Source: Albidovulum denitrificans
GTDB taxonomy: Bacteria > Pseudomonadota > Alphaproteobacteria > Rhodobacterales > Rhodobacteraceae
Length of the DNA stretch: 64,000 nucleotides
NCBI RefSeq assembly: GCF_002973535.1
Contig: NZ_PVEP01000005.1
Location: forward strand, 62,001-126,000
Direction: 5' to 3'
Below are positions 1,811 to 3,740 of the stretch, in pieces. How positions within the stretch are numbered: position 1 is the stretch's first letter; every line of letters starts with the position of its first letter. A program made the position numbers and the translations under genes. The notes below the pieces were generated by a model, which did no database searches, had not been told where the DNA came from, and was given only the letters and a program-made list of their open reading frames with translations.

Positions 1811-2361
1811 TGCGCGATCTCGTCCTCATCTCGCTCTTGCTGCTGATCCAGCTTGTCTGCGCCTTCTTCTTCGTCGGCCAGACTTTGATGACCTATCTCG
1901 ACATCCAGCACAGCCCGATCAGTTGGGAACTGCATGAGGTTCTTGAGGTCGGCGCCGCGCTTGGCCTTGTCTTCGGCGCGGTTCTGGGCGGCATCGTGCT
2001 GCGCCGGAGCATGCGGCGCCAGAAGCGCGCGGAGGAGCAGCTTCGCCAGGTTTCGGGCGCGTTCATGGAGTTGATGCAGGCGCGGTTCGCGGATTGGGGG
2101 CTGACCTCGGCCGAACGGGACGTTGCGCTTTTCGCGATCAAGGGCCTTAGCACGCAAGAGATCGCCAGCTTGCGCGGCACGGCGGGCGGGACGGTGAAGG
2201 CGCAGACCAATGCCATCTATCGCAAGGCGGGCGTGACCGGGCGGTCGCAATTGCTCAGCCTCTTCATCGAGGACCTGATGGATGAGGAGATGCTGCCCGG
2301 TCTTGCCGGAGCCGCCACCGATGACCGCGATGTCGATGCGGTGATGCAGGCGGCGGGCTAA
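1807..2361 (+). CDS. Membrane-anchored LuxR-type HTH transcriptional regulator
   Basis: A 184-residue protein with two predicted membrane helices (about 4-27 and 46-66), a basic/coiled linker (RRSMRRQKRAEEQLRQ), and a C-terminal LuxR-type helix-turn-helix (about 98-155, LTSAERDVALFAIKGLSTQEIA then TVKAQTNAIYRKAG). It lacks any sensor, receiver or autoinducer domain, so the membrane part or the coupled upstream protein probably provides the input. The gene overlaps the upstream PepSY-like gene by 4 bp. A second ATG directly follows the first (1810), so either may be used. Its TAA stop (2359-2361) lies within the first bases of the 95-bp repeat element. Target genes are unknown. Confidence 0.85.
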   Translation: MMRDLVLISLLLLIQLVCAFFFVGQTLMTYLDIQHSPISWELHEVLEVGAALGLVFGAVLGGIVLRRSMRRQKRAEEQLRQVSGAFMELMQARFADWGLTSAERDVALFAIKGLSTQEIASLRGTAGGTVKAQTNAIYRKAGVTGRSQLLSLFIEDLMDEEMLPGLAGAATDDRDVDAVMQAAG

Positions 2362-2452
2362 AGCATTTCGAGTTTGCACTGACTCAGAATTTGAACTTAT
2401 TTCGTTCGAATTCTGATGCTTACCTTCTCAACGAAAACCCGAAACGCTTTAA
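2358..2452. repeat. 95-bp palindromic element, copy 1
   Basis: First of three near-identical 95-bp elements (others at 2852 and 3646). Its ends form an inverted repeat (CTAAAGCATTTCG at the left, CGAAACGCTTTAA at the right), and its centre forms a second inverted repeat (TCAGAATTTGAAC, 7-nt spacer, GTTCGAATTCTGA). It is clearly more AT-rich than its surroundings. It sits between convergent genes: the left end supplies the TAA stop of the membrane regulator (2359-2361), and the right end supplies the TAA stop of the DUF2237 gene (2451-2449). It could act as a bidirectional transcript end. This copy has the most substitutions in the inner arms. Confidence 0.9.
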
Positions 2453-2826
2453 TCCGCCGCCGCGTGACGTTTCAGGATGTCGAGGGGGACGATCCGGCCC
2501 GCGCGTTCATGCGTGGCGGGCAGATGCACTTTCGGGGCGCAGCCTTCGTCGTGGGCCTGCAGGAAACGGGTGGCGCAAAGACACCAGCGGTCGCCGGGCT
2601 TGAGGCCGGGGAAGTGGACCTCGGGCCGGGGCGTGGACAGGTCGTTGCCCACATATTTCGAGAAGGCGAGGAATTCGGCCGTCATCACCGCGCAGACGGT
2701 GTGCCTGCCCGCATCCTCGGCGCAGGTGTTGCAGTGGCCGTCGCGGAAAAAGCCGGTCAGGGGATCGGCGGAGCAGGGTTCAAGCGCGCCGCCAAGGACG
2801 TTGCGGGGTGGATAGGGTGTGACCAT
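2449..2826 (-). CDS. DUF2237 family protein
   Basis: A 125-residue protein matching the DUF2237 family, small cysteine-containing bacterial proteins of unknown function. The family pattern is clear: NVLGGALEPCSADPLTGFFR near the N terminus, then CNTCAEDAGRHTVCAV, NDLSTPRPE and FPGLKPGDRWCLCATR. Seven cysteines, several in conserved positions, hint at metal or redox chemistry, but none is proven. A strong ribosome site (AGGAGGTG) lies 5 nt upstream of the ATG at 2826. The stop codon lies in the end of repeat copy 1, and repeat copy 2 begins 26 bp upstream of the start, so the gene is bracketed by the element. Upstream on the same strand is pth. Confidence 0.88.
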   Translation of the reverse strand: MVTPYPPRNVLGGALEPCSADPLTGFFRDGHCNTCAEDAGRHTVCAVMTAEFLAFSKYVGNDLSTPRPEVHFPGLKPGDRWCLCATRFLQAHDEGCAPKVHLPATHERAGRIVPLDILKRHAAAD

Positions 2827-2851
2827 CGTTGCACCTCCTTCGAAGGCCGCG

Positions 2852-2946
2852 CTATAGCATTTCGGGTTTACACTGAATCAGAATTCGAACTTATTTCGTT
2901 CGAATTCTGATACTTACTTTCTCAACGTAAACCCGAAACGCTTTAG
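2852..2946. repeat. 95-bp palindromic element, copy 2
   Basis: Best-preserved copy. The outer arms CTATAGCATTTCGGGTTTAC and GTAAACCCGAAACGCTTTAG pair almost fully, and the inner arms ATCAGAATTCGAAC (2877-2890) and GTTCGAATTCTGAT (2898-2911) are a perfect 14-bp inverted repeat around TTATTTC. The right end provides the TAA stop codon of pth (2945-2943). It lies between pth and the downstream DUF2237 gene, both on the minus strand. Confidence 0.92.
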
Positions 2947-3617
2947 CGGAAGCGGTCGATCAGTTTCTGAAGCGGGTTGCGCTCGTCTTCCGGCTCAATG
3001 GTCGCGGCAGGCGCGGGTTTTCCGGCAGGCTTCGGGGCGGAGGGACGCGGTGGCGCTGTGCGCAGGCTGACGGCATTCATGAAGCGTGTCGCATCGCCCT
3101 GCGCAAGGGCGGGCGCGCCATCGGAGATCCCGCGCAGCAGATCCTCGATCCAGTCGCCATCCGCCTTGGCGAAGTCCGACAGCACATAGGCGGCGACGCG
3201 GGCCTTGTCGCCGGGATGGCCGATGCCGATGCGGACGCGGTGATAGGCCTCGCCGATATGCTGGTGGATCGAACGCAGGCCGTTATGCCCCGCGTGACCG
3301 CCGCCGGTCTTGACCCGCAACTTGCCGGGCGCAAGGTCAAGTTCGTCGTGGAAGACGGTGACGTCATCAGGCGTCAGCTTGTAAAAGCGCATCGCCTCAC
3401 CCACCGACTGACCGGAGAGGTTCATGAACGTGTGCGGCTTCAGCAGGACGATTTTCCCGGACCCGAGCCTGCCTTCGCTGACCTCGCCCTGAAAGCGCGC
3501 ACGCCAGGGCGCAAAGCCGTGATCCGTGGCGATGCGGTCCACGGCCATGAAGCCGATATTGTGGCGGTTCGCCTCATACTTGCGACCCGGATTGCCCAGC
3601 CCGACGAAAAGTTTCAT
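2943..3617 (-). CDS. pth: Peptidyl-tRNA hydrolase
   Basis: Cytoplasmic enzyme that cleaves peptidyl-tRNA released from stalled ribosomes and recycles the tRNA. The 224-residue protein has the bacterial Pth signature: GLGNPGRKY near the N terminus, RHNIGF with catalytic His19, [10 protein letters not shown] (60-69), and FHDELDL with catalytic Asp91. The core ends near residue 190, and a Pro/Ala-rich linker plus the tail [11 protein letters not shown] extend it beyond the usual ~190-200 residues, as is common in this bacterial group. Repeat copy 3 is just upstream of the start and copy 2 supplies the stop codon. It does not sit beside rplY or ychF here, its frequent partners elsewhere. Confidence 0.96.
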
Positions 3618-3645
3618 TCGGCCCCTCTTCGGTGATGGGCCGAAG

Positions 3646-3740
3646 CTATAGCATTTCGGCTTTACGCTGAATCAGAATTCGAACGTATCTCGTTCGAATT
3701 CTGATACTTGCTTTCTCAACGAAAACCCGAAACGCGTTAA
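3646..3740. repeat. 95-bp palindromic element, copy 3
   Basis: Third copy, in the same orientation and of the same length as the other two. The inner arms ATCAGAATTCGAAC and GTTCGAATTCTGAT are perfect; the loop is GTATCTC. The left terminus is CTATAGCATTTCGGC and the right is CGAAACGCGTTAA. It lies between the DUF302 gene, which ends 32 bp away at 3772, and the pth start. Here no coding sequence uses its end as a stop codon. Confidence 0.92.

Follow-up and report, generated by a model that had tools for sequence, protein, structure and literature searches.

Overall, our analysis indicates that the three 95-bp repeats near the start of the window, the 64,000-nucleotide stretch of Albidovulum denitrificans DNA that was analysed, are very probably copies of a miniature transposable element (MITE). 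An IS630-family transposase acting in trans would insert the element's gene-less 89-bp body into the target YTAR, the central TA of which is duplicated. The sequence-only reading had offered two explanations, a non-autonomous miniature element and a domesticated transcription-end module; the former is borne out by more than 100 copies, the TA duplication, empty sites and full IS630 transposons with matching ends in relatives. The family has the marks of an IS630-type MITE, being short, repeated and devoid of a transposase gene, with IS630-like TIRs and a TA duplication. An autonomous partner was not found in the same genome; a MITE usually has one but does not require it.

The three copies in the window and the family in the genome

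Direct-repeat analysis confirmed the three 95-bp copies, all in one orientation; copies 2 and 3 are in register with copy 1 and show 91% and 84% identity to it, respectively. The length reported earlier as exactly 95 bp counts target bases, namely Y, TA, the 89-bp body, TA and R. Both repeat analysis and folding recovered the proposed outer inverted repeats, the outer arms pairing in all three copies. The inner stem, previously given as 14 bp with a 7-nt loop, is exact in copy 2 but varies in the others, copy 3 having 15 bp around a 5-nt loop and copy 1 having 13 pairs. The copies and their parts are as follows.

2358..2452, plus strand: copy 1 of the MITE, whole (repeat analysis, folding, covariance model)
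2358 (Y), 2359-2360 (TA), 2450-2451 (TA), 2452 (R): target of copy 1
2361-2449, plus strand: body of copy 1
2384-2396/2404-2416: inner stem of copy 1, 13 pairs
2381-2385: GACTC (GANTC) of copy 1
2852..2946, plus strand: copy 2, within the pth stop codon (TA 2853-2854, body 2855-2943, TA 2944-2945)
2877-2890/2898-2911: inner stem of copy 2, 14 bp, 7-nt loop
2875-2879: GAATC of copy 2
3646..3740, plus strand: copy 3, 28 nt upstream of the pth start (TA 3647-3648, body 3649-3737, TA 3738-3739)
3671-3685/3691-3705: inner stem of copy 3, 15 bp, 5-nt loop
3669-3673: GAATC of copy 3

RNA folding of the three copies on both strands gave z-scores from -6.0 to -13.5, and in each case none of 200 shuffles folded as well. 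The clustering of the three copies was considered as a special feature and rejected; when 109 copies were placed randomly, a triple within 2 kb arose in 14% of trials (P 0.14). The window also holds, at 1376-1810, a small protein with a long repeat tail of the GGESGGE type.

The family was located by BLAST and a covariance model built from 31 rows. Among 1,055 candidates, 150 places were scored, giving 109 forward matches across the 4.1-Mb genome, the other 41 being reverse readings; the search for further copies suggested earlier was thus answered positively. Ninety-eight of the 109 copies are 95 bp long, seven are 94, two are 96, one is 86 and one is 78. Counts that depend on flanks refer below to the 106 copies read with flanks, and counts per position to the 96 copies of 95 bp. 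Two further 51-bp derivatives (L361, 5984-6034, and L362, 4029-4079, on contigs C1 and C3) lack the inner hairpin; they are joined at a TCA that is found on both sides of the lost part, and their ends are still YTA..TAR-like. A full transposon between two solitary arms was considered and rejected, the arms being these derivatives.

The mean identity of the copies to their consensus is 92.5%, and no two of the 96 are identical, the closest pair differing at 1 of 95 positions. Because no DDE_3 transposase was matched in the genome and no two copies are identical, the family looks inactive in this genome. None of the 106 copies lies inside a called gene, the gene calls being derived from a home-made codon score, and the ends extend into stop codons. 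The earlier statement that the elements sit only between genes accordingly holds up to the neighbouring stop codons, which the elements overlap. Rfam gave no match at the gathering level; at the lax level there were four chance-like matches and one tRNA-Sec match below the gathering score (selenocysteine tRNA model, L101 652-735 of genome G308, E 1e-4, near an element copy). Searched against plasmids and phages, the element gave no match except a weak one in one E. coli phage, and no description of the 95-bp family was found in the open-access literature searched.

Target site, IS630 partner and distribution

The ends of the copies record the target. Of the 96 copies, 94 begin with Y at position 1 and 85 have R at position 95, and the inner TA is kept at both ends (T in 86 and A in 90 on the left, T in 90 and A in 90 on the right). 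These YTA..TAR ends, together with uninterrupted CTAG in relatives, identify the target-site duplication as TA.

Empty sites were found at the places of copies 2 and 3, at the level of the target letters. In relative G118, pth ends in CGC-TAG-G, which contains an uninterrupted CTAG, and a DUF2237 gene follows downstream with no element between; the spacer after pth is longer than in our genome, so that the empty site is not letter-for-letter. For copy 3, 10 of 20 relatives have an uninterrupted CTAG 28-32 nt ahead of the pth start, the equivalent distance in our genome being 32 nt. Two other relatives have CTAG at 37 and 49 nt before pth, but 8 of 20 have none within 50 nt. This letter-level reading covers 20 relatives, G117 with its partial pth being excluded. 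Model R1 found no element at the pth loci of 21 relatives (about 1.5 kb of flanks), and several relatives that lack the element there carry copies elsewhere in their genomes. The CTAG kept upstream of pth by 10 of 20 relatives (window 3610-3645) is perhaps part of the pth promoter.

The transposase gene with matching ends that had been called for was found in relatives, but our genome has no DDE_3 match, although 3 of 14 named genomes match in the control. Genome G204 carries a 1,053-bp IS (L379) with the ends TA-AAGCGTTTCGGCTTGAACCTGAATC and TA-AAGCGTTTCGACATTAACCTGAGAC. Its two ORFs match IS630 transposase, the second with NF033545 at E 1e-31 and DDE_3 at E 2e-28. G204 also carries 117-bp relatives of the MITE, the arms of which differ from those of its IS, and is the only genome observed with both such an IS and related MITEs. 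By tblastn, relatives of the G204 transposase occur in 952 plasmid records; nine IS630 loci were read, and seven of them, each 1,049-1,054 bp long, have the same type of end. These seven come from Roseovarius, Paracoccus (two), Sulfitobacter, Pseudosulfitobacter, Roseivivax and Dinoroseobacter, the last with the weakest end match (GAGCRTGTCG). An Azospirillum locus is more distant, and no such ends were found at a Rhizobium K1/93 locus. A Y precedes the TA at all 14 ends of the seven plasmid IS630s and at both G204 ends.

IS630s and MITEs share not only their outer ends but also the same subterminal asymmetry, the left side carrying ACCTGAATC and the right side ACCTGAGAC, or close variants of these. 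Among the eight IS630s of this clade that were read (G204 included), the left subterminal motif is CTGAATC or near forms, with GAATC in six and GANTC in seven, and seven have CTGAGAC, CTGAGGC or near forms on the right. The corresponding letters of our MITE are CTGAATC and TTGAGA. We therefore propose that the outer 25-28 bp on each side of the element would be the ends of an IS630 clade, recognizable by an outer TA-AAGCRTTTC and by this subterminal pair, and that the middle would be an unrelated hairpin. An IS630-family transposase, a partner that we infer from the relatives, would have moved the copies in trans. Simple deletion of an IS does not appear to explain the arms: at body positions 10-16 the agreement between arms is 0.81-0.87 in MITEs vs 0.50 in the eight IS630s, and over the outer nine positions it is 0.74-0.84 vs 0.92.

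Two other kinds of mobile DNA were compared. PF13340-type transposons were rejected as the mobiliser: those in several Rhodobacterales (L366-L384) occupy YTAR-like sites, but their ends differ, the inverted ends found at 10 of 19 loci beginning with TA-GG rather than TA-AAGC. We take IS711 to belong to this PF13340 group. IS711 duplicates TA in YTAR (PMC2266754), the same target as that of the 95-bp element. The other comparison is with REP-type palindromes, which depend on a RAYT (Y1 transposase) for their movement; we give such an origin next to no credence. The element resembles REPs as a high-copy intergenic palindrome, but REPs associated with RAYTs are described as 20-40 bp long with a GTAG or CGTC tag (PMC3733652), whereas the element has 95 bp, ends reading YTA-WAGC that match IS630, and a TA duplication.

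The family is patchily distributed. Within the genus, 10 of 22 genomes (our own included) have matches and 12 have none; in Rhodobacteraceae, 17 of 394 genomes, representing 16 of 393 sampled genera (our genus included), match at E 1e-4. Outside the genus these are mostly 104-117-bp relatives with the same ends and different inner letters, that of G141 being 95 bp. Across the class, the wider family model R2 matches 7 of 385 genomes, three of them outside Rhodobacteraceae (ten matches in G744, two weak matches each in G697 and G555), and on 80 pth loci of Rhodobacteraceae it gave no match at E 0.001. Against plasmids, the other-genus elements L101, L100, L350 and L342 gave no match, and L106 matched 23 records, two of them covering at least 80% of the query. 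In a comparison that covers the 95-bp copies fetched, the nearest relative of a copy lies within the same genome for 96 of 96 of our copies, 32 of 32 in G111 and 22 of 24 in G118. This grouping by genome indicates that each species amplified its own set of copies.

Stop codons and the placement of copies

The stops of the membrane regulator, the DUF2237 gene and pth had been assigned to the element ends, and the coordinates agree with this assignment.

2359..2361, plus strand: TAA stop of the LuxR-type membrane regulator (1807-2361), formed by the left TA and the first body base of copy 1 (element positions 2-4)
2449..2451, minus strand: TAA stop of the DUF2237 gene (2449-2826, minus), formed by the right TA and the last body base of copy 1 (positions 94-92)
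2943..2945, minus strand: TAA stop of pth (2943-3617, minus), formed by the right TA and the last body base of copy 2 (positions 94-92)

The same arrangement recurs throughout the genome. Among the 106 copies, a stop lies at the right end (positions 94-92) in 69, at the left end (2-4 or 23-25) in 18 and at both in 15; the flanking genes are convergent at 61 copies and divergent at 5. A weight-matrix scan of 36, 30 and 19 loci in same-genus relatives supplied 73 elements, two of which fall within a called gene.

Part of this pattern probably follows from the target itself. YTAR is scarce within the genes of our GC-rich genome and TAR is a stop, so many of the tolerable targets are stops. Outside the elements, the window holds 31 YTAR sites, 10 at stops, 15 intergenic and 6 in genes; 315 kb of flanks of our copies hold 31 at stops, 97 intergenic and 58 in genes. 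However, copies with an end at a stop number 72 of 106 compared with a stop share of 31 of 128 among non-coding YTAR sites (binomial 3e-21), and target preference alone is therefore insufficient. A likely source of the stop excess would be the loss of insertions that disrupt promoters. The earlier proposal that the element inserts at gene ends is right in that many stops are used, but the placement is better described as insertion at YTAR, of which stops make up a large non-coding share, with survival there.

Selection is also suggested by the letters of the ends. A gene meeting an end that reads TAA (or TAG or TGA) would keep its protein unchanged, and a TAT end would add seven residues. An end that supplies an immediate TAA or TAG contains the facing gene's stop in 70 of 100 cases in our genome, in 22 of 44 in same-genus relatives and in 18 of 41 from other genera and families, compared with 17 of 112, 12 of 96 and 4 of 27 of the other ends (Fisher 2e-16, 4e-6 and 0.017, respectively, on rows that are not independent). 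These counts follow the in-phase stop, and ends with an immediate TGA, counted among the others, account for 7 of the 17 hits in our genome and 7 of the 12 in the same genus. The other genera contributed 34 rows, several from one genome; L112 (contig edge), L344, L345, L349 and L350 (weak or with two hairpins), and L353, L359 and L360 were excluded. In these 34 rows, 22 left ends read TAA or TAG and the side bias is absent (10 left, 12 right); the six rows with a right end of TAT have the stop at the left in three and at the right in none, in a small sample (p 0.18). As judged from these sequences, the side bias tracks the end letters, which shift between genera, and would result from selection on whether the end restores a stop at once. 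We infer that selection, not targeting, would give the excess at stops and between convergent genes.

The hairpin, GANTC and known repeat families

The excess between convergent genes also bears on the other explanation in the sequence-only reading, that the element is a domesticated 3′-end module, retained because its hairpin terminates or protects transcripts, above all where genes converge. We consider this improbable. The hairpins are strong on both strands, the arm symmetry at body positions 10-16 exceeds that of the IS630s, and in copies 2 and 3 the plus strand reads ACTTRCTTTC after the inner stem, an arrangement scored as terminator-like by a simple scan, in which these copies are 2 of 3 sites in the region and shuffles give 1.5. 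However, the T-rich stretch after the inner stem, present on one strand in our genome, is not conserved in other genera when the alignment is read by eye, so that the hairpin with a conserved U-run that defines an intrinsic terminator was not found. Orientation was rejected as a sign of an RNA function, since copies in tandem contexts are oriented 34:6 in our genome but 21:15 in same-genus relatives. Restricted to tandem contexts without stop overlap, the ratio is 18:4 in our genome, which would favour the module, but 13:12 in the relatives.

Strand-specific selection on an RNA was likewise rejected. G-U pairs in our genome number 365 on the minus strand vs 117 on the plus strand, but the excess vanishes (117:117) without three fixed pairs; in relatives the counts without these pairs are 48:32, 73:61 and 17:16, which amounts to no more than a slight minus excess among related copies. 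Across genera, 92 cells of the arms changed on both sides and 16 on one side, with 22 G-U among about 657 paired. The 92 cells that changed on both sides and are still paired compare with 36 in shuffles and 12-33 in slid controls, in an alignment of 22 rows from 16 genera (seven rows from our genus) for which finding by a structure model favours paired rows. Since the changes in the arms are mostly Watson-Crick swaps, they point to DNA rather than RNA, and suggest that the arms become or stay complementary as DNA, for example when one arm is copied onto the other. Taken together, these comparisons of sequences give the module little support and favour the MITE, although some of its copies between convergent genes may act as insulators.

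In 88 of 106 copies, and in 17 of the 22 aligned rows of the family, the junction of the two stems carries GANTC, the CcrM methylation site. A further explanation would be a regulatory DNA site around GANTC, spread by duplication and kept for cell-cycle control; a GANTC-based regulatory role has been proposed in print for CIR repeats. In its favour, 95 of 96 copies keep G24, 93 keep T27 and 94 keep C28, but the methylated A (position 25) is kept in 85, fewer than its neighbours, and GANTC also lies in the left end of seven of the eight IS630s of this clade that were read, which accounts for it as a component of the transposon end. We regard a regulatory origin as very unlikely.

The CIR repeats were reportedly described by Chen and Shapiro in 2003. 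According to a later review, they occur in Caulobacter and other alphaproteobacteria, are about 110 bp long and intergenic, have TA termini and an internal GANTC, and consist of two separate arms joined by a linker, with no TIR and with GANTC at the terminal loop (PMC2229807). By that description, the 95-bp element resembles them in size, TA termini, intergenic location and the presence of GANTC, although the methylated A of this site is among the more variable positions there. It differs in that its outer arms pair and its two stems are nested, with GANTC where they meet. In genome G697, from another family, L345 and L350 have similar outer letters and two separate hairpins with a linker, as described for CIR. 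That GANTC belongs to the IS630 left end in the 95-bp family suggests a possible common origin with CIR.

The closest known system is RUP of pneumococcus with IS630-Spn1. RUP is described as about 107 bp long with 108-110 copies, IS630-like TIRs, a TA target and TIRs that pair when folded (PMC2229807, PMC3049150). By this description our element is alike in size, copy number, TIR type, target and pairing; it differs in being from another bacterium, with no IS630 match in the host genome. By analogy, the 95-bp family may work like RUP, which is not to claim that it is RUP. Two other repeat families may be compared: Bru-RS1/2 of Brucella are given as 103-105 bp repeats (PMC2267715), and RIME of Rhizobiaceae are described as repeated, intergenic, of conserved structure and alphaproteobacterial (PMC2573895), like our element. 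A search of 50 kb of S. meliloti pSymB with model R2 gave no significant match, and this stretch may hold no RIME.

A wider conjecture, which taken as a whole we hold to be rather unlikely, is that scattered palindromic intergenic repeats of alphaproteobacteria, CIR included, are MITEs of one IS630 clade. GANTC would then belong to ACCTGAATC, the subterminal motif bound by the transposase, so that methylation by CcrM could restrict transposition to one stage of the cell cycle, and the arms of the MITEs, unlike those of IS630s, would be kept palindromic by arm-to-arm copying through the hairpin, in line with Watson-Crick swaps and few G-U steps.

With the MITE reading, a repeat family present in 16 of 393 sampled genera gains a probable mechanism and a transposon that can be named as its partner. 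It also shows that a transposon with a YTAR target would be able to supply the stop codons of host genes without harm. If the CIR repeats are of the same kind, their unexplained methylation site would become a testable transposon feature.
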